A stretch of DNA of 22,142 nucleotides, taken from the IMG/VR virus record IMGVR_UViG_3300011114_000547, positions 1-22,142 of that record. One strand, written 5' to 3'. Source of the DNA: a virus. The notes beneath the pieces were generated by a model, which made no database searches, was not told the DNA's origin, and worked only from the letters and a program-made list of their open reading frames with translations. The translations under genes and the position numbers were made by a program. Shown in pieces: positions 1 to 17,303 of this stretch (position 1 is its first letter; every line of letters starts with the position of its first letter).

Positions 1-3000
1 CGACCGCCGCACTCACGGCTATTACCAATACGCAACTTCTGACTTGCCAGAGCAATCGTTTCCGCGATGCCAGCACAAACAACTTCACGATCACGGCCAA
101 CGGCGATGTCTCCGTCCAGCCCTTCTCTCCCTTCAACCCGACCACGGCGTACTCAGCCAGCAGCATCGGTGGCAGCGGGTACTTTGATGGGAGTGGGGAT
201 TATTTGAGCGCTGGAGTGCAGTCAGCATTTAATCTTGGTACTAGTGACTTTTCGTTTGAAGGTTGGGTTTATCCGTTTGCTGTAGATAAGGCTTGGGTTA
301 GTTGTCATCAAGCTGGTAATGCTGATGGTTGGTATTCATACCTTAATCCTCCGCGTTTAGAAGTATATTCAAATGGTGGTGGTGGCGGTGGAGTGTCCTC
401 TAATGTTACGCCGCCAGTTAATGCTTGGTGTCATATTCTATTTACAAGACAATCAGGCAGATTAAGAGTTTTTGTTAATGGCGTTTTAACAGGAACAACA
501 ACAAATTCGTACACCATAAACCAAGACGGTCGAAATTTTATTATTGGTGCCATTACTAACGGATTAGCGGCAATAAATGCTTACATTAGCAATTTTCGAC
601 TTGTAAACGGTTCTGTTCCTACAGATTATCAAACCAGCGCAACATCTCTCGGAACTCTTGTATTTACACCATCAACATCTCCTTTTACTACGACATCACA
701 AGGCGCAACATCTGGTGACGTAAAATTACTCCTTAATTACACCAACGGAGCCATCTTCGACAACGCTGCTGTGGCCGACTACGAGACTGTGGGCAATGCC
801 CAGATCAGCACCAGCGTGAAGAAGTACGGCACAGGGTCGATGTCGTTTGACGGGACGGGGGATTACTTGGTGACGGACGCGCCGTCTACGGATTTGTTTG
901 CGTTCGGTACTGGCGATTTTACGATTGAGTTCTGGCTGTACTTAAACTCTACATCGGGAACCCCGATAATTTATGACGGTCGCCCGTCCGCGACAAATGG
1001 GGCGCAGCCAACCATTTATATGAATGGGGCCGTGATTACTTATTACACAAATGCCGGAAACAGAATTACTGGTAGTTCGTTGAGCGCATCAACGTGGTAT
1101 CACGTTGCTTTGTGTCGAGTCGCTTCGCAAACCAAAATGTTTGTCAACGGTACGCAAGTTGGAGCGACTTACGCCGACACGACAGCCTACACAAATACGG
1201 CAGGGCGTCCGGTTTACGGCGTGGATGGTAATTCTGGAAACACTAACTATTTCAACGGCTACATCGACGACCTTCGTATCTCCAAGGGCGTAGGCCGCTA
1301 CGCCTACAACTTCACGCCCCCCACGGCTGCGCTGCCTGACATCGGCGGCACAATCACGCTGACTGCCGATCCGTACTACGAGTACACCACGCTGCTGCTG
1401 CCGGGTAACGGGACGAACGGCGCACAGAACAACACGTTCCTCGATAGCAGCACCAACGCCTTCACGATCACCCGCAACGGCAACACGACGCAGGGTACGT
1501 TCTCGCCCTTCTCGCAGACGGGGTGGGGGAACTATTTTGATGGTACGGGCGATTATCTTGAAACGCCAAGCAATGCTGCTTTTACGTTAGGTTCTTCTGG
1601 CGATTTTACTATTGAATGCTGGGTTTACCTTACGGCAACTTCAGGAAATTACGCGGCGTTTTTAACTACTTGGGCAGATGCATTAAGTAACTACACTAAC
1701 AGGTGGTGGGTTGGTACGAACGCGGACGGAATTCTTCGTTGGTATGATAGTTCTGGAAACACCGGAATAGTTGATTCCGTTGTATTAACGCTAAATACGT
1801 GGTTTCACGTTGCTGTTGTAAGAAGTGGATCAACCATCACACTCTACAAGAACGGCACTGCAGTCGGAACTCAAACTACAAACCAAGCGTATACAACGCA
1901 AGGTTCTGTAAAAATGGGGTATTCTGGAACAAATAGCGGTTATTATTTTGGATATATTTCTAATGCCCGAGTAGTCAAAGGCACCGCCGTCTACACGGCT
2001 AACTTCACGCCTCCAACCACTCCGCTCACAGCCATCACCAACACCTCGTTGCTGACCTGTCAGAGCAACCGCTTCATCGACAATAGCACCAACAACTTCA
2101 CAATCACCCGCAACGGTGACGTATCGGTGCAAGCCTTCTCCCCGTTCAACCCCACGGCTTCGTGGAGCGCGGCGACGTATGGCGGCAGCGGGTATTTTGA
2201 TGGGAGTGGGGATTATTTGGTTGGCCCCAACAACGCTGCGTTCAATTTTGGAACAGGCGATTTCTGTGTTGAGTTTTGGATTTATCCAAGCGATTTAACT
2301 TTTAGAATTTATTTATCTTCCGCGGATAACGCCGGTACTCAAATTGGTTATGACCCCGGAAATGGCCCTCGGTATTTGTATTTTTACAATGGATCAAATA
2401 TTTTCAGCGGGCAAACCGCAGGGTTCCTTGCAAATCAATGGAACCATATTGCACTTTGCCGCTCGGGAACAACGCTGTCGATGTATTGCAACGGCACTCG
2501 CGCTTATACAAACGCTGCATATTCTTCTAACATAAGTTTTACAACACCGTATGTTGGTGAATACAACGCGCTTGGATATCCCACACTTGGATACATCAGC
2601 AATTTGAGGTTGGTAAAAGGAGCGTCTGTTTACACGCCGTCATCCTCAACGCTTACTGTTCCGACCGCGCCGCTTACTGCGATTGCTAATACCAGTCTTT
2701 TGTTAAACATGACCAACGCAGGCATCTACGACGCTACGTCCAAGAACGATTTGGAGACGGTCGGCAACGCGCAGATCAGCACGACGCAGAGCAAGTTCGG
2801 CGGCTCATCGATGTACTTCGATGGGACGGGGGATTATTTATATGCTCGAAATAATCAAGACTTAAATCTTGGAACTGGCGATTTTACTTGTGAATGTTGG
2901 GTTTATGTAACATCTTGGTCAAATGCTAATCCGCATTTGTTTGCAAAATGGAATGATGGTGGAAATGGTTATGCATATAAAGGTCGTATTTTAAGTAGTG

Positions 3001-3332
3001 GAGCCTCTTTAAGATTTGGAACCGGAAACAACGGTACTCTAAGTACGGAGTTTGATTTTTCTGGCGCGAATTTAAGTTTGAATACTTGGTATCACATAGC
3101 GTTTACTCGCTACGGCTCATCATTAAAAGCGTTTGTAAACGGTGTGCAAATCGGCAGTACACAAACTACGTCAAACTCTTTAAGTTCAAATAGTGCGTTT
3201 TTGGTTGGCGCAGCATCTGATGGTGGCTTAGATTACATTTTTGGCTACATCGACGACCTCCGCATCACCAAAGGCATCGCCCGTTACACCAGCAACTTCA
3301 CCCCGCCGACCACGGCGTTCCTGACCCTGTAA
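1..3332 (+). CDS. Multi-LamG tail fibre / receptor-binding protein (5' end outside window)
   Basis: The reading frame is open from base 3 with no stop, so the gene continues past the left edge; 1109 codons are visible. A TTG at 204 is not a credible start because the upstream translation is a clear repeat copy. Five concanavalin A/LamG-like jelly-roll modules are visible. Each opens with a FDG(T/S)GDYL strand, followed by a GDF...E.W.Y strand, a W.H(I/V)A..R strand, a NG strand and a closing Y(I)(D/S)(D/N).R(L/I/V).KG strand. They begin near bases 180, 846, 1539, 2190 and 2817. LamG-like modules of this kind bind carbohydrate or surface ligands in other proteins. I infer a tail fibre or virion appendage that contacts host glycans. 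Linkers between modules are GC-rich, while several cores are strongly AT-rich. The product ends at TAA 3330-3332, 8 bases before the next gene. The LamG calls are firm; the fibre role is inferred from phage context. Confidence 0.8.
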   Translation, partial: TAALTAITNTQLLTCQSNRFRDASTNNFTITANGDVSVQPFSPFNPTTAYSASSIGGSGYFDGSGDYLSAGVQSAFNLGTSDFSFEGWVYPFAVDKAWVSCHQAGNADGWYSYLNPPRLEVYSNGGGGGGVSSNVTPPVNAWCHILFTRQSGRLRVFVNGVLTGTTTNSYTINQDGRNFIIGAITNGLAAINAYISNFRLVNGSVPTDYQTSATSLGTLVFTPSTSPFTTTSQGATSGDVKLLLNYTNGAIFDNAAVADYETVGNAQISTSVKKYGTGSMSFDGTGDYLVTDAPSTDLFAFGTGDFTIEFWLYLNSTSGTPIIYDGRPSATNGAQPTIYMNGAVITYYTNAGNRITGSSLSASTWYHVALCRVASQTKMFVNGTQVGATYADTTAYTNTAGRPVYGVDGNSGNTNYFNGYIDDLRISKGVGRYAYNFTPPTAALPDIGGTITLTADPYYEYTTLLLPGNGTNGAQNNTFLDSSTNAFTITRNGNTTQGTFSPFSQTGWGNYFDGTGDYLETPSNAAFTLGSSGDFTIECWVYLTATSGNYAAFLTTWADALSNYTNRWWVGTNADGILRWYDSSGNTGIVDSVVLTLNTWFHVAVVRSGSTITLYKNGTAVGTQTTNQAYTTQGSVKMGYSGTNSGYYFGYISNARVVKGTAVYTANFTPPTTPLTAITNTSLLTCQSNRFIDNSTNNFTITRNGDVSVQAFSPFNPTASWSAATYGGSGYFDGSGDYLVGPNNAAFNFGTGDFCVEFWIYPSDLTFRIYLSSADNAGTQIGYDPGNGPRYLYFYNGSNIFSGQTAGFLANQWNHIALCRSGTTLSMYCNGTRAYTNAAYSSNISFTTPYVGEYNALGYPTLGYISNLRLVKGASVYTPSSSTLTVPTAPLTAIANTSLLLNMTNAGIYDATSKNDLETVGNAQISTTQSKFGGSSMYFDGTGDYLYARNNQDLNLGTGDFTCECWVYVTSWSNANPHLFAKWNDGGNGYAYKGRILSSGASLRFGTGNNGTLSTEFDFSGANLSLNTWYHIAFTRYGSSLKAFVNGVQIGSTQTTSNSLSSNSAFLVGAASDGGLDYIFGYIDDLRITKGIARYTSNFTPPTTAFLTL
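18..206 (+). repeat. LamG linker repeat type 2, copy 1
   Basis: This 63-codon block precedes the first visible LamG core and aligns without gaps to bases 2031-2219; 52 of 63 residues are identical by eye. It includes the shared residues LLTCQSNRF, STNNFTIT, NGDVSVQ and GGSGYFDGSGDYL. A more divergent relative lies before the third module (about 1390-1560). Confidence 0.85.
726..869 (+). repeat. LamG linker repeat type 1, copy 1
   Basis: A 48-codon block before the second LamG core. It aligns without gaps to bases 2697-2840, sharing LLLN, ETVGNAQIST and FDGTGDYL. It is GC-rich (35 of 60 bases in 781-840 are G or C), unlike the flanking core. Confidence 0.8.
2031..2219 (+). repeat. LamG linker repeat type 2, copy 2
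   Basis: Gapless partner of bases 18-206 at 63 codons. It immediately precedes the fourth LamG core. The final 30 or so bases, encoding GGSGYFDGSGDYL, are nearly identical between copies at DNA level, while the cores that follow are clearly different. Confidence 0.85.
2697..2840 (+). repeat. LamG linker repeat type 1, copy 2
   Basis: Gapless 48-codon partner of bases 726-869, preceding the fifth LamG core. The core that follows is AT-rich (20 of 60 bases in 2941-3000 are G or C). Confidence 0.8.
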
Positions 3333-6017: not shown

Positions 6018-7211
6018 GTGACTACTTATACGAATACTTTCGGCGGGACGAACATTTACCCCAGCGATGTATCTTATCGCTATGTCTCGCTGACCATTGA
6101 TCAGGCGCTGGACTGGCCGCTTGAGACGGCTCCGACGAATGATGTGGTCGCGTCCATCATGGACGTTAATGCCACGACGACGAGCCTTGTCATCACGATG
6201 CCGGATGCGACCGAAGCCGGTACTGGGCAGACGGTATTGTTTAACAACGTCGGCTCCAACACGTTTACCGTTAAGACCAGTACTGGCACTCAAATCTGTG
6301 CACCGACTTCGGGCAGCACTTTTCAGATCTACCTGACTGACAACAGCACGGCTTCGGGCACTTGGCGTTCGTTTCAGTACGGTGCGTCTGCCTCTGCAAG
6401 CAATGCTGCCAGTTTGGCAGGCCTTGGTCTTAAAGCTATTGCAACGACGCTTAACCAGTCGATTGAAGTTTCTTCCTTTAGCAGCAACTACACGGCGGGG
6501 GTCAGCGACCGATCCAAGGCATTTATCTGGACGGGTGGTGCGGGGACTCTTTCTCTGACCGCAGCGCCTACGCTTGGCAACGATTGGTTTGTGCAGATTC
6601 GCAATGGCGGTACGGGCGATCTGACGATTGATCCGAGTAGCTCGGAAAACATCAACGGCGCGACTACGCTTACGCTTTCGCCCGGAGACTCCTGCATCAT
6701 CGTAACGGATGGCGTGCAGTTCTGGACGATTGGCTTTGGTCAGTCTGCGGTATACGCCTTCAGCGTGCTTCAGATTGATATTGCAGGCAGCGGTAACTAC
6801 ACGCTCACGGTATCGGAACTTAACAAAACCGCTTACATCTTTACTGGGCTTTTGACTGGTAATCGCGACATCATTGTTCCGACGACTGCCCAGCAGTACT
6901 GGATTAGCAATCAGACAACCGGTTCTTACACGCTGGGCATCAAGACGGCTGCGCAGTCTCCGGCAGTCACCGTTGCTCAAGGCGCACGGGCTATTCTGTA
7001 CTGCGATGGCACTAACGTGGTGGACGCAGATACGGCAACGATTGCCATCCCGGTAACCGTGGCTCAGGGTGGTACAGGAGCAACCACGGCATCGGGCGCT
7101 AGAACAAACCTTGGCGCTACGACAGTAGGCGATGCGGTATTCACTGCGGCTAGCACTACGGCTGCGCAAATTGCGCTTGGACTTGATCCGATTCAGGGCG
7201 GCACGTACTGA
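6018..7211 (+). CDS. Beta-repeat tail protein / short tail fibre
   Basis: A 397-aa protein starting at GTG 6018 with GGGAGG 8 bases before it. It contains three loosely repeated beta units of about 80-120 residues, each a run of short strands ending in a hydrophobic '(F/C)xIxxTDG' or 'AILYCDGT' turn (about residues 80-120, 175-240 and 295-340). Near the C-terminus is VAQGGTGATTASGARTNLG, a motif very common in phage tail fibres and collars just before a terminal domain. Here only about 30 residues follow it. No signal peptide or membrane segment is seen. The stop TGA overlaps the next ATG by one base (TGATG). A tail fibre or tail-tip spike component is most likely; the receptor is unknown. 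Confidence 0.7.
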   Translation: MTTYTNTFGGTNIYPSDVSYRYVSLTIDQALDWPLETAPTNDVVASIMDVNATTTSLVITMPDATEAGTGQTVLFNNVGSNTFTVKTSTGTQICAPTSGSTFQIYLTDNSTASGTWRSFQYGASASASNAASLAGLGLKAIATTLNQSIEVSSFSSNYTAGVSDRSKAFIWTGGAGTLSLTAAPTLGNDWFVQIRNGGTGDLTIDPSSSENINGATTLTLSPGDSCIIVTDGVQFWTIGFGQSAVYAFSVLQIDIAGSGNYTLTVSELNKTAYIFTGLLTGNRDIIVPTTAQQYWISNQTTGSYTLGIKTAAQSPAVTVAQGARAILYCDGTNVVDADTATIAIPVTVAQGGTGATTASGARTNLGATTVGDAVFTAASTTAAQIALGLDPIQGGTY

Positions 7212-8821
7212 TGCCTTTGCAGCCGATCATCATTCGTCCGCAACCCGGTATCAAACGGGACGGTACGAAGTTTGAGGGCAACTTTTACGTTGACGGACAA
7301 TGGGTCCGTTTTCAGCGCGGGCTTCCTCGAAAGATAGGCGGTTTTCGTGCACTTCAAGATCGGTTGGACGGCATTGCGCGTGGCATGCACGTTCACAATC
7401 ATAATGGATATACCTATGTCCATATTGGGACGCAGGACGGTGTATTTCGATTTCGCCTGAGTCAAAACGGACTGAGCAGCATTGTGACCAACCGCACCAA
7501 CGGCGGGTACGTCAGCAATAGCAATGCCAACTGGATGTTTGATGTGGCGTTTAACACCACAACAAGCCAGAACGAAATCTTGGCGCATGTGGCTGGCGAC
7601 ATTGAAGACATTTCTTCAGATGCTAACGGCGCGTTGTATCGCGGATACGACAACGGCACGGCTCCGCTTGATCTAGTGTCAGCCGTCACGGTCTCTGGCG
7701 GTATCGTTGCCTTAGCGCCGTATGTCTTTGCGTATGGCTCTGATGGTTTTGTGCAGTGGAGTCGCGCGGGATATACGGATGACTGGTCTGGCGGCGATGC
7801 CGGATCTGCGCGAGTTACAAGCCAGAAGATCGTCAAAGGACTACCGCTTCGCGCGGGCGCGGGCAATGCACCGTCTGGTCTTTTCTGGTCGCTGGATTCC
7901 GTAGTTCGCGCTACGTATGTGGGCGGCGCTGCCGTCTTTAATTTCGACACCATTACCTCGCAGTCAAGCATTCTCCCTGGGAAGAGTGTGATTGAGTACG
8001 ATGGTTTGTACTTCTGGTGCGGCGTTGACCGCTTCTTGATGTTCAACGGTGTTGTACGCGAAGTGCCCAACCAGCTTAATCTGAACTGGTTCTACGACAA
8101 TCTAAACTACGCACAGCGGCAGAAAGTCTTTGCGTTTAAGGTGCCGCGTTGGGGCGAAATCTGGTGGTGTTACCCGCGTGGCAGCGCGACCGAATGCACG
8201 CATGCGGTGATTTACAACGTGCGCGAAGAAACGTGGTACGACACTGAACTTCCGAACGGCGGTCGCTCTGCGGGCATGTATGCGCAGGTCTTTAACTCGC
8301 CGCTCGTGATTGGTGTCATTGATACCGAAACCACGCAATATCGTGGCGTACAAAACACCGAACTGCGCATTACGGAAGATGGCAATCCGCGCATCATCAA
8401 CGACCCCAAGGGCTACGTGGTGTGGCAGCACGAGTACGGTACTGATGAGATTAACGGTGATCAGATTCGCCCGGTGCAGTCGTACTTTGAGACGGCAGAC
8501 ATGTCGCTGATTGCTTCCGAAAACCCGCAGAACATGGCGATCCGAGTGGAGTATCTGGAGCCGGACTTTGTGCAGGCAGGCAACATGACCGTACAGGTTA
8601 CCGGTCGCGCCAACGCCAAGTCAGCCGAAGTCACGAGCGATCCGCAGACCATTTACGCTACGCCCACCGAGAAGCAGCAGCAGTTGGTGTACTTCCGCGA
8701 GATTCGTCGCGAGTTGCGCTTCCGGTTTGAGAGCAACACCCTGAATGGTAACTACCAGATGGGTCAGGTCATTGCGCACATTGAACCAGCGACCGGTACG
8801 ATCTTGGGAGAGAACCCATGA
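7211..8821 (+). CDS. Tail nozzle / hub protein, beta-propeller-like (P22 gp10-like)
   Basis: A 536-aa, beta-rich protein. It begins with a segment (GNFYVDGQWVRFQRGLPRKIGG) of the kind that starts many podovirus tail hub proteins. Repeated blade-like strands rich in aromatic residues and Gly follow, for example YTYVHIGTQDGVFRF, VFAYGSDGFVQWS, LYFWCGVDRFLMFNGV, and WGEIWWCYPRG. The C-terminal part (about residues 400-530) is a second beta domain with FREIRRELRFRFES. P22 gp10 and the nozzles of T7 and SU10 are beta-propellers that extend the tail below the adaptor. Gene order directly after the adaptor and a tail protein supports the same job. The homology is judged from pattern and position. 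Confidence 0.65.
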   Translation: MPLQPIIIRPQPGIKRDGTKFEGNFYVDGQWVRFQRGLPRKIGGFRALQDRLDGIARGMHVHNHNGYTYVHIGTQDGVFRFRLSQNGLSSIVTNRTNGGYVSNSNANWMFDVAFNTTTSQNEILAHVAGDIEDISSDANGALYRGYDNGTAPLDLVSAVTVSGGIVALAPYVFAYGSDGFVQWSRAGYTDDWSGGDAGSARVTSQKIVKGLPLRAGAGNAPSGLFWSLDSVVRATYVGGAAVFNFDTITSQSSILPGKSVIEYDGLYFWCGVDRFLMFNGVVREVPNQLNLNWFYDNLNYAQRQKVFAFKVPRWGEIWWCYPRGSATECTHAVIYNVREETWYDTELPNGGRSAGMYAQVFNSPLVIGVIDTETTQYRGVQNTELRITEDGNPRIINDPKGYVVWQHEYGTDEINGDQIRPVQSYFETADMSLIASENPQNMAIRVEYLEPDFVQAGNMTVQVTGRANAKSAEVTSDPQTIYATPTEKQQQLVYFREIRRELRFRFESNTLNGNYQMGQVIAHIEPATGTILGENP

Positions 8822-9061: not shown

Positions 9062-11434
9062 ATGGCCAATTACTACACCTACGGTGAAACGCCGGACCCC
9101 AAAGAGGCTGTCTACGGACCTCTTTCGCAAGGCTTCGCTGATGGCGGCGAGGTGGACGAAGATCGCTTTTATGTGCCGCGAGAAGACTTTGTTCCAATCA
9201 TTCCGGAAGAGAGTTATCCAGAAGACATTCCGTATGAGGAGTCGGCTCCGATACCTCCGGCTCTTAGCAGCTTTGATGCTGGCCAGAAAGCGATGGCATT
9301 GGCTTCGCTGATTGATCCGACATTGCTTAAAGGCTTTGGCGTTGGCGATGCCGCATTTGGTGGCGCTGGGACTAGTGGCGCTGCTGTTCCTGATTATTTC
9401 CGAGCCGTGGCTCCGGGTACAGTAGGCGGTCAAGGCGCTTTGTACGAAGAAGGCGCTTTGGAGGCGGCTAAGAAAGCCGCAGTTGATCCCACTCAAGGGC
9501 TATTCAAATCTGGCTTTGAAGCGTTGGCCGGTCAGCCGGGAATTGAAGAAGCCATCAAGGCAAAGTCTGAACGCGATCTTGGCGCGCTTGCCAAGGTGGA
9601 ATCTGACTATGATGTGATGAAGCCGATTAGCGATCTGCTAAAGGCAAACAATTTTGAGCAAGCATTTGACGTTGCCAAAGAGAAGGGCGTCGTAGACAAG
9701 ATGATGAGCCCCGGTTGGCTTCAGCAGTTGCGTCAGCCGTTTACTCCGGAAGAAATGAAAGCTTTCTACAAAGCTATTCCGCCGGACTATCGTGGTTCAG
9801 ATTTTAAATTTGATCCAAATCGCGGGCAAATTTCTGAAAACGGGTATCCTGAGCCGCTGTCGGCATTTAAGTACGAACAGCCACTCACCGCTATTGACGC
9901 CATCATTCGTCTTGGTGGAGCGGCGGTCTTAGGTGCAGGCGCATTGTCCGCATTGGGCGGCGCTGGTGCTGCGGGTGGGGCTGGCGCTGCTGGCGGGGCT
10001 GGGGCTGGCGGAGCAGGGGCGGCTGGCGCAGGTGCCGCCGGAGCAGGGGCTGCTGGTGCCGCTGGCGCTGCGGGAGCGGCTGGTGCTGGCGGAGCATTAG
10101 CAGCAAGTGCTCTTCCTGAAATTGTTATTACTGCAACAAAACTTGGGTTAACAATTCCACAAGCTGCTGCTTTGATTGGAGCGACTGGAGCAACGATTGG
10201 TGGATTAAGTGGAGCGGGAGCTGCGCCTGTTAGTGCGCCCCCAACGCCGTCAGCACCAACAACTCCAGAGCCTCCCATTGAGGAAATTGTTGTTAGAGGA
10301 ACAGCACCAACTACTCCTCCTCTTGGTGGCGTTGTTGCGCCTGTTGCTGGAGCACTTCCGGGCACTCAGCCCGCTGCTCCTCAAGAGCCTACGGTGCCTG
10401 AAGAGCCAACTGCTCCGGAAGAACCAACAACCCCAGAAGAACCGCCTACCGAGGAGGTAGTAGTTACAGGAACAAAACCTGTTACGCCTCCTCTTGGTGG
10501 CGTTGTTGCTGGAACTGTTGGAGCTGGAGCAGTCGCTGGCGGTGCGCCTACAGAGCCTCCAATGGAGGAAGTGGTTGTTGAAGGAACTAGACCTACTAAG
10601 CCAGATGTTGTCGTTCCTCCAGTAGTTCCGCCGACTACGGGACCTGTTGATGCTGGTGTTCCAGAAGAACCTCCAATGGAGGAAGTGGTTGTTGAAGGAA
10701 CTAGACCAACCAAACCTGATGTAACAGTTCCGCCAGTTATTGTTCCTCCGGGTACGGTGACGCCTCCTGAACCTACAAAGCCAGAAGAGCCTCCCTCAGA
10801 TAAAAAACCGGATGAAAAGAAGCCGGAAGAAAAGAATCCGCTTCAGGCTTTGATCGACAAGTACGGCACGCTTGAAAACTTCCTAAAGATTTTGGGAGCT
10901 TTGGGCGCGGCAGGATCAAAAACTCCTACGGCTCCGGTAACCACTCCAACGGTGCCGAGCATGGGCGGCGCGTTGCCGAAGTACACCTACACCCGGCAGC
11001 AGTTGCGCCCGGACATTGACTACTACACCTACGGCACCCGACCGGAGGCCAAGTTTTTTGAGCAGGGCTTGCAGTTGGAAAAGCCGGTTCAACCGCCTCC
11101 GCCAGCAGACGTTAACCCGCCGGATGAGAACAAACCTATGGCCTATGGCGGCTTGACCGGCTACTCCCATGGCGGTAGTCACAGTTCGCGGTACGTGGAC
11201 GGCCCCGGCTCCGGTCGAGATGACAAGATCCCGGCATTGCTCAGCGATGGGGAGTACGTAATTGACGCTGAGACCTTGGCGCTGTTGGGAGACGGCTCGA
11301 CCAAGGAGGGGGCGAAGAGACTTGACGAGTTCCGTGCTAATATCCGCAGGCACAAGGGTCAGGCCCTCTCGCGTGGCCAAATTAGTCCGAACGCTAAGTC
11401 GCCCGAAAAGTACATGGGCGGAGGGTTGACCTAA
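9062..11434 (+). CDS. Large low-complexity virion protein with Ala/Gly tract and TonB-box-like repeats
   Basis: A 790-aa protein starting at ATG 9062 after an AGGTGA site. Order of regions: an acidic N-terminal segment with YYTYG (4-8) and FADGGEVDEDRF; a helical region (about 70-280); an Ala/Gly-only tract (about 285-349); a Pro/Glu-rich stretch carrying five copies of a (E/P)E(I/V)V(V/I)xxT motif (residues 353, 407, 464, 502 and 540); a Lys/Pro linker; a second YYTYG (654-658); and a C-terminal domain with YVDGPGSGRDDKIPALLSDG followed by EYVIDAETLALLGDGS. That last domain recurs in large proteins of many uncultured phages. Position at the head of the ejection-protein block suggests an internal or injected virion protein. 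Its TAA overlaps the next ATG (TAATG). Function is not established. Confidence 0.75.
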   Translation: MANYYTYGETPDPKEAVYGPLSQGFADGGEVDEDRFYVPREDFVPIIPEESYPEDIPYEESAPIPPALSSFDAGQKAMALASLIDPTLLKGFGVGDAAFGGAGTSGAAVPDYFRAVAPGTVGGQGALYEEGALEAAKKAAVDPTQGLFKSGFEALAGQPGIEEAIKAKSERDLGALAKVESDYDVMKPISDLLKANNFEQAFDVAKEKGVVDKMMSPGWLQQLRQPFTPEEMKAFYKAIPPDYRGSDFKFDPNRGQISENGYPEPLSAFKYEQPLTAIDAIIRLGGAAVLGAGALSALGGAGAAGGAGAAGGAGAGGAGAAGAGAAGAGAAGAAGAAGAAGAGGALAASALPEIVITATKLGLTIPQAAALIGATGATIGGLSGAGAAPVSAPPTPSAPTTPEPPIEEIVVRGTAPTTPPLGGVVAPVAGALPGTQPAAPQEPTVPEEPTAPEEPTTPEEPPTEEVVVTGTKPVTPPLGGVVAGTVGAGAVAGGAPTEPPMEEVVVEGTRPTKPDVVVPPVVPPTTGPVDAGVPEEPPMEEVVVEGTRPTKPDVTVPPVIVPPGTVTPPEPTKPEEPPSDKKPDEKKPEEKNPLQALIDKYGTLENFLKILGALGAAGSKTPTAPVTTPTVPSMGGALPKYTYTRQQLRPDIDYYTYGTRPEAKFFEQGLQLEKPVQPPPPADVNPPDENKPMAYGGLTGYSHGGSHSSRYVDGPGSGRDDKIPALLSDGEYVIDAETLALLGDGSTKEGAKRLDEFRANIRRHKGQALSRGQISPNAKSPEKYMGGGLT
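9914..10108 (+). repeat. Ala/Gly codon tract
   Basis: About 65 codons almost all Ala or Gly, with small tandem units such as GAGAAG and GAAGAAGAA. It is GC-rich and imperfectly repetitive at DNA level, so probably prone to slippage. It encodes a small-residue hydrophobic segment that could insert in or pack against a membrane. Confidence 0.85.
10118..10705 (+). repeat. Five TonB-box-like motif repeats in a Pro/Glu-rich linker
   Basis: Motifs read EIVITATK (10118), EEIVVRGT (10280), EEVVVTGTK (10451), EEVVVEGTR (10565) and EEVVVEGTR (10679). Spacing is 54, 57, 38 and 38 residues. They are separated by PTTPEEPP-type linkers, and two copies are followed shortly by PPLGGVVA. Confidence 0.8.
10556..10593 (+). 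repeat. 38-bp exact direct repeat, copy 1
   Basis: A 38-base stretch encoding PPMEEVVVEGTRP that recurs without mismatch at 10670-10707. The copies start 114 bases (38 codons) apart, in frame. Confidence 0.85.
10670..10707 (+). repeat. 38-bp exact direct repeat, copy 2
   Basis: Second copy of the 38-base repeat. Codons diverge right after it (CCT ACT AAG versus CCA ACC AAA) while the residues PTKPDV stay the same, so the duplication is not brand new or is under selection. Confidence 0.85.
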
Positions 11435-12501
11435 TGAGCGCAGTTGACTTTCTGTTTGAAGGAAGCGCCCCGACACCGGGCACTACAGCCAGCACCTCTC
11501 AGGTGCAGTTGCCCGAGTGGTATACCCAGTACACGACCGACATGCTGGGCCGCGCTCAGGCAGCGGCTAACCTTCCGTATGCGCAGTACACCGGACCGCG
11601 TATCGCCGGGTTCACTCCGACCGAGCAAGCTGGCTTTGAAGCCACCAAGCAGGCTGCAACCGCTTATCAGCCGTTTTTAGGGCAGGCGGGAGCCACCCTT
11701 GGCCAAGCAGGCGGGGTGAGTGCACTCGGGGTTGCGCAGCCTTTCTTATCTGCTGCCAGCCAGACATTCCCCGGAGCCGTTGGGGCATACATGAGCCCCT
11801 ACACCCAGAACGTGGTCAATCAGATCGCGGAGCAGGGTGTCCGGCAGTTGCAGGAAAAGTATCTCCCGGCGGTGGGCGAAGAGTTCATCAAGGCTGGCCA
11901 GTTTGGACCCGGCCCCGGTTCGACTCGCATGGGCGAGTTTGGTGCGCGGGCGCTGCGTGATGTTCAAGAGGCGGTGCTTTCAGAACAGGCTAAGGCTCTT
12001 GAGTCTGGCTACAAAACGGCTGCGGACATCTACGGAACCGATGTGGGCCGGATGGCAACGCTTGCAGGCACGGCGGGTCAGTTGGGGCTTGGCGAAGCCA
12101 AAACGCTTCAGGATCTTGCGTCTCGTTATGGCGAGATGGCGGGCGAGGCTCAGCGGTTGGGCTTGACCGGTGCCGGTGCGATTGGCGGCGTAGGCGAGAA
12201 AGAGCGCGCTATGCAACAAGCCAATCTTGAGCTGGCGTACAAGGACTTCTTGCGTCAGGAAGCGTATCCGAAAGAACAAGTTCAGTTCTTGGGTAATGTG
12301 CTTCAGGGAGTTCGTTTGCCGCAAACGACGATTACTCAAACAACTGCGACACCTGCACAGCCGGGAGGTCCTTCGGCAATTGAGAAGGCTATTACTGGCG
12401 CGACTGGGGTTGCCAACATTATTGATCTTATTAAGAAGTACCTCCCTAGTGGGTCAAGCGGGGCTGGCGGCACTAATACGTCAAAAATGACAGACGGTTA
12501 A
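11434..12501 (+). CDS. Putative internal virion (ejection) protein, 355 aa
   Basis: ATG 11434 overlaps the upstream TAA. The protein begins with a short linker, then LPEWYTQYTTDMLGRAQAAA and PYAQYTGPRIAGFTPTEQAGF. After that it is helical, Ala/Gly/Gln-rich and includes AYMSPYTQNVVNQIAEQG. This set of motifs recurs in a widespread uncharacterised protein of short-tailed phages. A weakly hydrophobic C-terminal stretch (ITGATGVANIIDLIKKYL, about residues 318-335) precedes a Ser/Gly tail. There is no signal peptide. Its place between the 790-aa protein and two large helical proteins suggests a member of the internal complex ejected with DNA, comparable in position to T7 gp14 or P22 gp7. That comparison is positional, not a homology claim. 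Confidence 0.65.
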   Translation: MSAVDFLFEGSAPTPGTTASTSQVQLPEWYTQYTTDMLGRAQAAANLPYAQYTGPRIAGFTPTEQAGFEATKQAATAYQPFLGQAGATLGQAGGVSALGVAQPFLSAASQTFPGAVGAYMSPYTQNVVNQIAEQGVRQLQEKYLPAVGEEFIKAGQFGPGPGSTRMGEFGARALRDVQEAVLSEQAKALESGYKTAADIYGTDVGRMATLAGTAGQLGLGEAKTLQDLASRYGEMAGEAQRLGLTGAGAIGGVGEKERAMQQANLELAYKDFLRQEAYPKEQVQFLGNVLQGVRLPQTTITQTTATPAQPGGPSAIEKAITGATGVANIIDLIKKYLPSGSSGAGGTNTSKMTDG

Positions 12502-12533: not shown

Positions 12534-13895
12534 ATGGATGACGAAAATCAAGAGCTTGATTCTGGCCTTAGCGGGTTAGGTCCTGAAGAGGAAGAAGGCG
12601 AGGAGACTGCCAGCATTACGGCTGCGGCTCAGCAAAACGCTCTTTCTTCATTGCCTGAAGTTTCCAAGTACGCGCTTGAAGAATACAAAGCCGCTCAGCA
12701 GGCTTACAACAAAGCTTACGCCGGAGAGGCCGGCGTTCTTGCTCAAATTCAAAAAGCAAGAAAAATTTTAGAGTCTCAGCCAACTCAAAAGACCCGAGGC
12801 GAATATGTGCAGGGTCTAGCTCAGGCTTTGACGAAGCCTAAAGAAAGTACTGATCCGCGTTTCTATGAGCGACGGAATCTGTACACCTTCCTGCGTGACG
12901 TAGGCGAGTATGGCTCTGCCGAAGAAAAAGCCCGTAAAGAAGCCGAGCTTAAACAAAAGCTGGATCTTCTGAAGCTTGATGAGCTTGCGGCCAAGTATGG
13001 TCAGGAAGAAGCGGGTAAGCGATTTACTCTGGCTTCGCAGTTGCTGCGCGCCCAGAGAGCGGGCGCCGGTGCTGCGGCTAAAGAGGATGAAATCACTAGG
13101 CTGCAAAGAGTTAGAGGCAATCTTGATATTAGTGATCCTGCTCAAGCAAAGCAGTATAACGAAATTACCGCGCGCATTGCTTATCTAGGCGGAAAGCGGG
13201 AAGAGAAAGCTCCTGAAGCAGGTCCGGGTGAAAAAGAAGTTGACAAGAAGATTGGCGCTGAATACGCCGATTGGGTTGTTGGTGGTAAAGGTGCGCAGGC
13301 TGCTTCGCGCATTTCAAAAATCAACGATGTTGTTTCTCAGCTTGGGAAAAGAAAAGATCTCAGCGGAGCAATTGTTGGATATACTCTTGAGAATCTTCCG
13401 ACTGTTTCTTCTGTTCTTTTCCCTGAAGCTCAGGATGTTAAAGATGTTGTGGAGTCTGTTGTTCAGACAGACCTTCGCGCCATCCTTGGCGGTCAATTTG
13501 CTCAGCAAGAAGGACTTGCTCTTATCAAGAGAGCTTATAATCCGCGTCTTGAAGAGTGGCAAAACGCAAATCGTTTAAAGCTTTTGTCTCGTCAAATGCA
13601 AATCGTTGCAGACGAAAAGAATCGCGCGATGAGTTATTTTGGTGAAAAAGGCACTATAAAGGGATATACCTTTAGACCTTATACGGCCAATGACTTTTTG
13701 ACTGCGGATCAGCTTAGAAGGATTGATGCTGGCGAAAGCGTAGAGTCCATTCTTGGGGAGGCTCCGCCTGAAAAACCAAAAGGCGAACAAAAGCCGAAGC
13801 CTGCTGGTGGGGGAGCGCCTGCTGGTGCTGCCAAGACGCCTGCGCAAAAAGCCGCAGAGGAACTTGCCCGTCGCCGCGCTGCCAAAGGGGGCTGA
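12534..13895 (+). CDS. Putative internal virion (ejection) protein, 453 aa
   Basis: Starts at ATG 12534, nine bases after GGAG. It is highly charged and mostly helical: an acidic N-terminus (DEEEGEE-like), long heptad-like Lys/Glu/Ala helices (about residues 45-230), then a more conserved-looking block. That block contains DLRAILGGQFAQQEGLALI, a NPRLEEWQNANRLKLL helix and YFGEKGTIKGYTFRPYT. A Pro/Lys/Ala-rich tail rich in small residues follows (about residues 405-453). I have seen the GGQFAQ.EG...I.RAYNP block in phage DNA-transfer-type proteins, but cannot name a family. It sits between two other large virion proteins, so a soluble member of the ejection assembly (position like T7 gp15) is the best guess. 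Confidence 0.65.
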   Translation: MDDENQELDSGLSGLGPEEEEGEETASITAAAQQNALSSLPEVSKYALEEYKAAQQAYNKAYAGEAGVLAQIQKARKILESQPTQKTRGEYVQGLAQALTKPKESTDPRFYERRNLYTFLRDVGEYGSAEEKARKEAELKQKLDLLKLDELAAKYGQEEAGKRFTLASQLLRAQRAGAGAAAKEDEITRLQRVRGNLDISDPAQAKQYNEITARIAYLGGKREEKAPEAGPGEKEVDKKIGAEYADWVVGGKGAQAASRISKINDVVSQLGKRKDLSGAIVGYTLENLPTVSSVLFPEAQDVKDVVESVVQTDLRAILGGQFAQQEGLALIKRAYNPRLEEWQNANRLKLLSRQMQIVADEKNRAMSYFGEKGTIKGYTFRPYTANDFLTADQLRRIDAGESVESILGEAPPEKPKGEQKPKPAGGGAPAGAAKTPAQKAAEELARRRAAKGG

Positions 13896-13898
13896 TAC

Positions 13899-16800
13899 AT
13901 GGCTGACATTGACTACAGCAAGCTTTCAGATGAAGAGCTGGAAGCTTTGTCGCGTGGCGATTACTCCAAGCTTTCTGATGCCACGTTACAGATGCTGGCT
14001 GGGGAGAAGCCTGCGGCTAAACCTGCTGCACCTGCGCCTACACCTGCTGCGCCCGCTGATCGGCGAAGATTTCCGATGCTTCCGCGTGATGTGCGCACTC
14101 CAACCGACGTTAGCCCCGGACGCGGCGTCAGCGGTTTAATGAGCATCCCCGGTGGCTTTCTCGACATTGCAACTGGCCTCACCGGTCTTTTTGGAGAAAC
14201 TGAAACCTCTCGGGAGCTGCGCGCATTAGAACAAAAGCTGGCTGAAAAGGCTCCGGTAAAAGAAACATACGAAGCTGGCAAGATTGTTCCGCAGCTCGTT
14301 CCGGCGCTGACCACTGCTAAACTTGTCTCTAAGATCCCAGTGGCATCCAAAGCGGCTCAGGCGATTTTACAAGCTGCGGGGCAAGCTGGTCAGGCTTATG
14401 CTGTGACTCCTTCCGCTCCGGAACCGAAGTTAAGCGATCTTGTTCTTGAGAAGCCCCGCGAAGAGGGGATCTTTGGCTTAGGGCCTCGCGGCGAGGCTGC
14501 TTTGATTGAAGGCGGTCTTGGCTTAGCTGGCGAAGCCATAGGGCCTATAGTAAGAGGCGGCACGGACTTTGCGCGTTCTGTTCGCGCGGGGCTTACTGGT
14601 CGAATCCGTGGCGTCCCTACAACACCTGTTACGGAAGAAGAAAAGGCTGCGCTAGAGATTGCTCGGAAGCGTGGCGCTCCTGAAACAGCAGAACTTTCTG
14701 AAGCAGAAAAAGCCGCTGCCGAAGCTAGAGCTGAAAGGAATCGTATTAAAGCTGCTGAAGCTGAGCAGAAGCTTGCGCTTGAACAGCAGCGTCAGGCTTT
14801 GCTTGCGCGAAAGAAAGCGGCTGAAGAAGCTGAGGCAAAAGCTCTTGAAACAGTTGAGCTGACTCCGACTCGCGGCAAGCAGGAGCTCGGGCAGCGACTG
14901 CGTGATGTGGTCATGTCTGCGCGCAAAAAATACTTGGATGCTCGCAATCAAGCCATTGGCAAGTTTGAGTCTGGCGATGAAATTCCCGTTTTCACCGCTG
15001 CTAAAGAACGAGAGTCTGTTGGCGATTTCATTACTTCCACTAAGTCTTTTGAGGATTTGGTTACGTATTTGAAGGACAGAAGTTCTACTGGCGATTTCGG
15101 CTTGAGAAATCTTACTCAGCCTCAAATGGACGCCATTGATAAGGTTTTGGAGCAGATCACTCCTAAAAAGAGAGTGATTGAGCGAGTTATTGACAAAGCT
15201 GGAAACGTCACTGAAAAAGAAGTCTTTAAAGAAGTTCCTATCTCTTTTGAAAAGCTTGAGGCCATTAGAAGGCTTGTTTCTGGTCAAGCGCCCGGAACGC
15301 CTGAGCTTGGTTTTGACGCCCTGAAAGGCAAAACAAGAGACGGAATCCTTTCTAAAATAGAAAGCACTCTTGAAAACTTTTCAAAGGGATTTGAAGATTA
15401 CAAGGCAGCTTACGCTGAGACTTCGGAGCCTCTCGACTTCTTGAAGGTCAACTCGGTTGGAAAGAAAGCCGCGACGTTCCAGAAGTTTAGCCAAGAGCAG
15501 TTTCAGGCTAATCCTGAGTCTGTACTTGATGCGCTGCTCAACAACCCCAGCAAGACCAACGCAGACAATCTGCTGAAGTTCGTCGGCAACGAGAACAAGG
15601 ATGAGATTGAGCAAGTTGTTCTTGAGGCTTTGGTTAATAAGGCTGGCGGCAAAGCCTCTGGCTACACCAAAGTGCTTGATAAGTATGATGACTTCTTAGA
15701 AGCATTCCCGACTGCAAAAGCTCGGTTGCAAGAGGAGGCTGGTGTATTTGAGAAGGCTACGGCACCTTCTCGTGCCGCCTTTGAAGAAGCAACCGCTGGC
15801 CTTGAGGGAATCAAGCTCGCGAGAGAAAGCGCGAAGAATCGCTCTCGCATTGCCAGTGCCGCGTTTGAAAGAGCTGAAAGTATCCGAGTGGCCGCGAAGG
15901 ATCGCGTTCAGGCTTTGAATGAGCTTGACGAAGATACGCTCATTGCTGTTAGCGAAGCGGCTAACAAAATACCGCTTAATACTTCGCTCGGTCTCGCTCA
16001 AGCGGCGGCTTTGGCGGCAATTGCTGGCGGTGTTGGAGCCGTAGCCAATGACTCTCCTGTTGCCGGTATCCTTGCTATTACTGGCGGCGCTTTGGGGCGT
16101 AAGCAAGTAAAAAATGCGTTTGCCAGAAAGCGTAAAGAAGTCGCAGATCGTATAGAGACTGAACTTCGTAAGATCATCACAGATCGTTCTGGCGGTCGCG
16201 CGGCATCGATTCAGACCCGCATTGACAACGAAACCGGAATCATGGATGCCCAACGCATTGCCAATGAGGCTTTGCGCAACCTTGGCATCAAGCCGGGAAC
16301 GGGCGCTGTAACTGCAAATATGATCTACAAAGCCTTTGCCACTGATAAGGGAGCCGATGCTGCCAGTGAAGGCGCATCAGAGCCTGCTGGTGAAGAAGGG
16401 CTTGTTCCGGGTGAGGAAGGCGAAGCCGAGTCGGCAGCGGATGGTCAGTCTTACGACATCGATGCCATCATTTCTAGTCGTGGCGCAGAGGATCTTTCTC
16501 CGGTTATCAAATCAATCTACGAGCAGGAGTCTTCGTCCGGTAAGGCAGAAAATCTCGACAAGGAGAACTATGCCGGTGCCAAGGGGCCGATGCAGATTAC
16601 TCGTGACACGTTTGATGCCATGCGTAACAAGGGCATGATCCCTGAAGATTACAGCTTCGATAATCTCTCTCATTTGGCTGAGGCTGGCGTGGTTCTGATT
16701 CAGGACCTTGCCAAGCGTTACGACAATGATCCTGAGAAGATTGCAGCGGCCTATTACGGTGGTCCGAAAGCGGTTACTGCACAAGGCATCAACCGGAATC

Positions 16801-17303
16801 AAGTAGATAAAAGAAACCCTAAAGCCCCGACCGTTGGCCAATACGCCGATCAAGTTTTGGCGCGATTGATTCCCACTGCGGAAGCTAAGGGGATGGCCGA
16901 TGGTGGCAGCGTAGATGCTGAGCGTCAGCGTGTTGAAAACGAAATACGCAAACTGCCTTGGTTCAGAAATTATGTTCGTAAGTTTGGTGAGGAGCCAAAT
17001 CTTTCAGCGACGGCTGACTATGATTACTTCACCGCATTTAAGTCCGGAGCGTTGCCGGACGAATCAGATCACTGGCCTTCATATACTCCGGACGGAAAAA
17101 TCCGTTTAAAAAAAGAAGGGCATCCGACGCTGTGGAAGACAAATTTCATGGATGCAACCGGTATCGACCCGGACACCATTGGCATAAAGAATGAGCAGGA
17201 AGCTCAGGCTTACATCAACGCTAGACGGGTCAAAAGATCCCAAGGTGGCGCTGCATACACCCCAGCAGAAGAGGTCTTGCTAAGACGCTACTCAAGCAGG
17301 TAG
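13899..17303 (+). CDS. Large internal virion protein with C-terminal lytic transglycosylase (SLT) domain
   Basis: An 1134-aa protein. The N-terminus has a tandem DYSKLSD motif (residues 5-11, 21-27) and an Ala/Pro linker. It continues as long charged helices (about 240-345), a helical middle and a hydrophobic pair of segments (about 693-735), possibly membrane-inserting. The domain at about 850-990 has the transglycosylase signature: catalytic-Glu motif YEQESSSGK (E877), AKGPMQIT (894-901) and AAYYGGP (950-956). The C-terminal ~135 residues begin GMADGGSVD and are of unknown function. It would cleave peptidoglycan locally so DNA can cross the envelope, like T7 gp16. In T7 gp16 the SLT domain is N-terminal; here it is near the C-terminus. 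The start ATG 13899 is 3 bases after the upstream stop. Confidence 0.85.
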   Translation: MADIDYSKLSDEELEALSRGDYSKLSDATLQMLAGEKPAAKPAAPAPTPAAPADRRRFPMLPRDVRTPTDVSPGRGVSGLMSIPGGFLDIATGLTGLFGETETSRELRALEQKLAEKAPVKETYEAGKIVPQLVPALTTAKLVSKIPVASKAAQAILQAAGQAGQAYAVTPSAPEPKLSDLVLEKPREEGIFGLGPRGEAALIEGGLGLAGEAIGPIVRGGTDFARSVRAGLTGRIRGVPTTPVTEEEKAALEIARKRGAPETAELSEAEKAAAEARAERNRIKAAEAEQKLALEQQRQALLARKKAAEEAEAKALETVELTPTRGKQELGQRLRDVVMSARKKYLDARNQAIGKFESGDEIPVFTAAKERESVGDFITSTKSFEDLVTYLKDRSSTGDFGLRNLTQPQMDAIDKVLEQITPKKRVIERVIDKAGNVTEKEVFKEVPISFEKLEAIRRLVSGQAPGTPELGFDALKGKTRDGILSKIESTLENFSKGFEDYKAAYAETSEPLDFLKVNSVGKKAATFQKFSQEQFQANPESVLDALLNNPSKTNADNLLKFVGNENKDEIEQVVLEALVNKAGGKASGYTKVLDKYDDFLEAFPTAKARLQEEAGVFEKATAPSRAAFEEATAGLEGIKLARESAKNRSRIASAAFERAESIRVAAKDRVQALNELDEDTLIAVSEAANKIPLNTSLGLAQAAALAAIAGGVGAVANDSPVAGILAITGGALGRKQVKNAFARKRKEVADRIETELRKIITDRSGGRAASIQTRIDNETGIMDAQRIANEALRNLGIKPGTGAVTANMIYKAFATDKGADAASEGASEPAGEEGLVPGEEGEAESAADGQSYDIDAIISSRGAEDLSPVIKSIYEQESSSGKAENLDKENYAGAKGPMQITRDTFDAMRNKGMIPEDYSFDNLSHLAEAGVVLIQDLAKRYDNDPEKIAAAYYGGPKAVTAQGINRNQVDKRNPKAPTVGQYADQVLARLIPTAEAKGMADGGSVDAERQRVENEIRKLPWFRNYVRKFGEEPNLSATADYDYFTAFKSGALPDESDHWPSYTPDGKIRLKKEGHPTLWKTNFMDATGIDPDTIGIKNEQEAQAYINARRVKRSQGGAAYTPAEEVLLRRYSSR

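Follow-up and report, generated by a model that had tools for sequence, protein, structure and literature searches.

The window, that is, the whole stretch of DNA analysed (22,142 nucleotides of a 22.1-kb IMG/VR virus record), carries on its plus strand an open reading frame of 790 amino acids (9062-11434) whose product, a candidate ejection (internal virion) protein, bears an array of short motifs and has homologues in IMG/VR and in the Caulobacter phages RW and GB2A. Upstream lies the gene of a virion structural protein (7211..8821; PHROG 3287, E 1.6e-31, with E 3.7e-35 for the GB2A copy). Downstream, on the same strand, follow gene 2 (11434..12501), gene 3 (12534..13895), which has no Pfam or PHROG match, and gene 4 (13899..17303), whose very large product contains an SLT transglycosylase domain as in an ejection-type lysin (PF01464, E 1.5e-8; PHROG 35577). 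The gene 2 product is homologous to gp064 of GB2A (44% identity over 336 aa, E 5e-81), which itself matches PHROG 4287, “DNA ejection protein”. The order of tail fibre, PHROG 3287 protein, small ORF, array protein, genes 2 and 3 and transglycosylase protein is identical in GB2A, and no similarity between the transglycosylase proteins of the window and of GB2A was detected by BLASTP. A preliminary description of this DNA had placed the array gene at the head of an ejection-protein block, and both the homology of gene 2 and the SLT domain of gene 4 bear this out. Block synteny, gene 2 homology and the transglycosylase neighbor together make ejection (internal virion) protein the most likely identity of the array protein and our best label for it, with a place in the virion predicted on the same grounds. 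At the contig end, a large open ORF (3-3332) encodes five consecutive Laminin_G_3/concanavalin-like domains (PF13385, E 3e-90), and its product is likely to be a tail fibre or a decoration protein. Host assignment through genome contigs returned just metagenome bins or matches to the C-terminal domain of the array protein.

Parts of the array protein

The AlphaFold2 model of the array protein was built from 18 sequences and is of low confidence throughout, its sole confidently modelled region being an N-terminal helical part at about residues 159-248 (9536..9805, plus strand; pLDDT 66-87). In a second look at the PDB, every match to the model had a Z below 4 and none rose above the helical-bundle background; BFVD gave zero matches at E 0.001, and no relevant solved structures were found. 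Immediately 5' of the first motif lies a Gly/Ala-rich hydrophobic segment (9908..10111, plus strand), conserved in position among homologues and possibly membrane-active. The linker that carries the motifs is rich in Pro, Glu, Thr and Val in the translation of 9062-11431, and its low AlphaFold2 confidence and lack of modelled secondary structure agree with disorder, although they do not prove it. Further on, the YTYGTRPEAKFF element (11021..11059, plus strand; signature YGxGPEAxFF) consists of invariant alignment columns and is common even to very distant family members, including L149 and L153, as well as to GB2A gp065.

The C-terminal domain (GPGSGRDDKIPALLSDGEYVIDAETL..., 11195..11425, plus strand) is 66% identical to that of GB2A gp065. 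Its pattern, GPG[ST]GxxDxIPAxLSDGEYVIDAE, ends many unrelated tape measure and virion proteins, those of Gram-positive phages included. All PHROG matches of the array protein fall within residues 697-742 and are to tape measure proteins; we rejected this label because the matches cover about 45 residues near the C-terminus and the rest is mostly low-confidence linker. A Pfam search returned nothing above cut-off, with no Plug domain (PF07715), no barrel and no toxin domain, so the protein lacks the Plug and beta barrel of a TonB-dependent receptor. Nor does it fit a TonB-dependent bacteriocin, given the missing toxin domain, boxes that are internal and multiple, and a gene set in a phage structural block.

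Likeness of the motifs to receptor TonB boxes

Receptors were gathered by a Plug-domain search of six bacterial genomes, and a ten-column matrix was built from 20 box regions upstream of the plug, trimmed by eye. Scored with this matrix, the array protein contains five TonB-box-like segments, all on the plus strand, and every one of the motifs first noted is present in the translated 9062-11434 frame. Site 1, LPEIVITATK (10112..10141, with PEIVITATK at 10115-10141), scores 20.0 bits; site 2, IEEIVVRGTA (10277..10306, with EEIVVRGT at 10280-10303), 16.6 bits; site 3, TEEVVVTGTK (10448..10477, with EEVVVTGTK at 10451-10477), 21.1 bits. Sites 4 (10562..10591, with EEVVVEGTR at 10565-10591) and 5 (10676..10705, with EEVVVEGTR at 10679-10705) both read MEEVVVEGTR and score 23.7 bits each. 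The range of 16.6-23.7 bits falls inside that of real receptor boxes scored by leave-one-out (3.3-25.8 bits). Site 5 duplicates site 4 as part of a 38-residue duplication with a period of 114 nt and identical core DNA; the two share a recent duplication, and the array therefore holds at most four independent copies. Tandem Repeats Finder also reported repeats in the Pro/Glu linker, and sites 1-3 encode the same residues by different codons. Because site 1 lies within a semi-conserved strand-plus-helix unit, where some homologues have FTVTAGGGLTAAQ instead, it may be structural.

Over 71 homologues, the matrix found about 160 sites that scored 11 bits or more, spread over 50 proteins. At the same threshold, composition-preserving shuffles of the family proteins gave 2.1 sites, the column-reversed matrix 7 sites in family proteins, and 500 column permutations of the matrix a mean of 5 and a maximum of 84, while the other ORFs on family contigs (n=427) held 16. 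At each of the ten positions, the phage consensus, L-E-E-V-V-V-T-G-[T/S]-[K/R], matches that of the receptors, in a comparison whose phage sites were chosen with the matrix itself; the alignment consensus PLEEVVVTG, derived without the matrix, agrees with the receptor box as well. The resemblance to the opening of the receptor plug that had been noted by eye is thus specific, and the motifs are neither chance nor generic beta-prone linker. Among 49 related pairs, which overlap and are non-independent, pN was 0.215 in motif codons vs 0.293 in the remaining linker at equal pS, with variable copy number blurring the linker alignments, and the lower non-synonymous change is only suggestive of selection on the motif.

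The same likeness to receptors is seen from the bacterial side. In 142 alphaproteobacterial genomes, the pattern [DE]EIVVTGx had 15 matches, 14 of them in TonB-dependent receptors, where it occupies the N-terminal TonB-box position directly after the signal peptide; Pfam found a Plug domain in all six of the receptor matches that were searched, and a permuted control pattern had 0 matches in these genomes. Within bacterial proteomes, [DE]EIVVTGx is close to a receptor signature.

Persistence in homologues and occurrence elsewhere

A profile search of IMG/VR recovered at least 539 relatives (loci) of the array protein. Of the 61 nonredundant members with more than 500 residues, 49 have at least one site of 11 bits or more and 12 have none. 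Copy number ranges from 0 to 7, with the maximum of seven in L071; sites are mostly spaced 35-60 aa apart on linkers that diverge, and about half of them are bounded by prolines. The motif is retained even in members so distant that they have little in common apart from YGxGPEAxFF, as PDEIVVTGTRPQEPN in L149 and as EEIVVTGTRPTEVD, which is repeated in L153 and L184. The likeness to the TonB box, multivalent as proposed for the window's five sites, is kept across very divergent homologues. In some distant homologues the mimicry runs further, with GTRIPN and GSRIPA. The preliminary description had named two outcomes that would speak against it: no enrichment over other beta-prone linkers, and homologues that keep the linker but not the core. 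Enrichment stood, since the motif beats shuffles, permuted matrices and other proteins, but the second outcome does occur in some members: in L009 and L020, the linker is kept with a weaker E[VI]KVE[TA] strand in place of the motif. Such strands are also found in L025, and the core is not universal in the family because some members carry them beside it or instead of it. In the distant relative L138, residues 984-1090 contain a variant, SDIVVNAPETTY, four times in place of the EVVVTG form, perhaps reflecting a different target specificity.

The GB2A homologue, gp065 of a cultured Caulobacter vibrioides phage, has only one strong site, VDEIVVTPSQ (19.7 bits). Two proteins that share its C-terminal domain, one from Streptomyces and the other an Arthrobacter tape measure protein, contain no site that exceeds 5 bits. 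A box in GB2A and none in these two Gram-positive cases is the expected direction, as judged from two proteins. DSL-LC04, a gammaproteobacterial-phage relative with the same C-terminus, had no strong site.

Elsewhere in the block, gene 4 of the window contains LETVELTPTR (14844-14873; 14.8 bits), also present in the homologous protein of the relatives L014, L022, L025 and L080; it may be a coincidence, its context being charged and probably helical. The gene 2 product ends in TonB-box-like strings in L009 (...KSETITVTPSEGG, 14.7 bits) and L023 (...KNETITVTPTEGD, 13.8 bits), and the window's gene 2 lacks this C-terminal string.

Outside the family, the search for such arrays in other phage proteins that had been suggested gave results near chance. 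A strict DNA pattern for EEVVVTG[TS]K matched 22 stretches in IMG/VR, mostly of this family, vs 0 for a composition-matched permutation, and [DE]EIVVTGx matched 78 stretches vs 22 for its permuted control. We make no claim of a general phage motif, because one non-receptor match per 142 genomes implies many chance matches in IMG/VR. Used as a short-peptide query on annotated phages, the array returned chance matches or none. De novo motif discovery with an expectation-maximisation method was dominated by low-complexity sequence, rich in Gly/Ala or Ala/Glu, or else by a conserved helix. Individual occurrences of [DE]EIVVTGx include the tape measure proteins L051 and L192, the Mu-like baseplate hub L180 and the tail tube L199, and those of the strict pattern a tail tube cap (L043) and a head morphogenesis protein (L035). 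These single TonB-box-like strings lie in the N-terminal tail of hub, tail tube cap and tail tube, and inside tape-measure-like proteins (L198 and L213 among the loci).

Possible capture of TonB and comparison with known systems

With these results, the initial resemblance has sharpened into a specific, enriched and recurrent mimicry, and the function that it suggests is a strong testable hypothesis. The explanation that we favor, at somewhat better than even confidence, is that a phage of Gram-negative hosts displays several TonB boxes on a virion ejection protein, which would capture host TonB in the periplasm, with an energetic role for that capture. Once ejected, the Gly/Ala-rich and helical parts would pass through the outer membrane or lodge in it, with the linker extending to the periplasm and capturing TonB; since TonB is scarce, multivalency would help the linker to compete for it with dozens of receptors. 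The ExbB-ExbD-TonB motor could then help draw the ejection proteins or a conduit inward, much like the import of TonB-dependent colicins. TonB capture could also block superinfection, and either a motor pull or mere sequestration would be possible. A broader version, in which a widespread lineage of environmental phages has TonB-box arrays in an injected protein that harnesses TonB-ExbB-ExbD directly and not via a receptor, uses this motor to bring ejection proteins or the genome through the outer membrane and perhaps deprives rival phages of TonB, is plausible but falls somewhat short of an even chance.

The motifs might instead be tags for internal assembly, each of them a short beta strand docking on a virion component (the portal, the gene 2 product or the protein itself) and resemble TonB boxes in that both are exposed acidic-valine strands. 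The strand-plus-helix setting of site 1 with its FTVTAGGGLTAAQ replacement, the E[VI]KVE[TA] strands of many members and the prolines around about half of the sites would suit such tags, but we regard them as rather unlikely: the agreement with receptor boxes spans ten columns, the [GA][TS][KR] tail included, a copy number of 0-7 would be unusual for a stoichiometric docking site, and the pattern is almost exclusive to receptors in bacterial proteomes. That the mimicry passes the TonB-box core to the [TS][KR] plug start, and reaches GTRIPN and GSRIPA in distant homologues, could also point to a linker that targets the receptor instead of TonB, mimicking the first plug segment, occupying the barrel and keeping it open for ejected proteins. 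Many copies on a linker, however, are better suited to catching a soluble partner than to filling one barrel, and no similarity to a folded plug domain was found in the array protein by Pfam, which leaves receptor opening improbable. Slightly less credible still is a low-complexity linker whose beta-prone stretches were spread by slippage duplication and have no specific partner. The recent duplicate formed by sites 4 and 5 and the repeats reported in the linker are of this kind, but shuffled, reversed and permuted controls lie below the observed count, the codons of sites 1-3 differ, and the motif persists in homologues whose linkers can no longer be aligned. TonB capture itself also has points against it: 12 of the 61 long members have no strong site and some carry the weaker strand, GB2A has one strong site and DSL-LC04 none, and TonB boxes vary in sequence (PMC11658791), which means that a decamer conserved over its full length could mark a partner other than TonB.

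Podovirus ejection proteins (P22 gp7, gp16 and gp20; T7 gp14, gp15 and gp16) are encoded at a like genome position, with a lytic transglycosylase in the block; family searches found no sequence similarity between them and the array protein, and we know of no TonB-box array among them. To our knowledge, the route and energy source of phage ejection proteins across the outer membrane are largely an open question. If TonB capture is correct, a virion protein would be tied directly to the proton-motive-force motor, and the variable copy number would be explained as competition for scarce TonB. No earlier description of a TonB box in a phage virion protein was found among openly licensed PMC papers, which is weak evidence of novelty.

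In phage T1, TonB and the proton motive force are required for irreversible adsorption via the receptor (PMC11658791). In both T1 and phi80, TonB acts through the receptor FhuA, unlike the direct capture proposed for the array protein. We know of no TonB box described in any virion protein. In TonB-dependent receptors of Proteobacteria, the segment before the Plug (LEEVVVTGTR/EIVVTGSRI) matches the array column by column; the array protein differs in having no signal peptide, Plug or barrel and in repeating the segment on a linker. Among cultured phages, a counterpart is gp065 of RW and GB2A (Riverwalkvirus), annotated as a tail length tape measure protein, with a homologous C-terminus and the same gene order; the GB2A protein is shorter than the array protein and has weaker strands beside its one strong box. 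These phages and C. vibrioides CB15 provide a laboratory model that is already at hand.

Receptor boxes are bound by TonB via strand addition, and a box of their own lets some colicins be pulled in; that of colicin M, ETLTV, lies in an unstructured N-terminus, and a TonB suppressor rescues its box mutants (PMC8469651). The predicted disorder of the phage linker would resemble this setting. Colicins M and B and related bacteriocins are foreign proteins whose TonB box, placed where the chain has no fixed structure, recruits periplasmic TonB-ExbB-ExbD. Colicins have one box near the N-terminus of a secreted toxin, whereas the phage protein has up to seven internal boxes, and TonB dependence, proven for colicins, is predicted from sequence for the phage array. 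The array would, on this reading, extend the colicin trick to phage entry.
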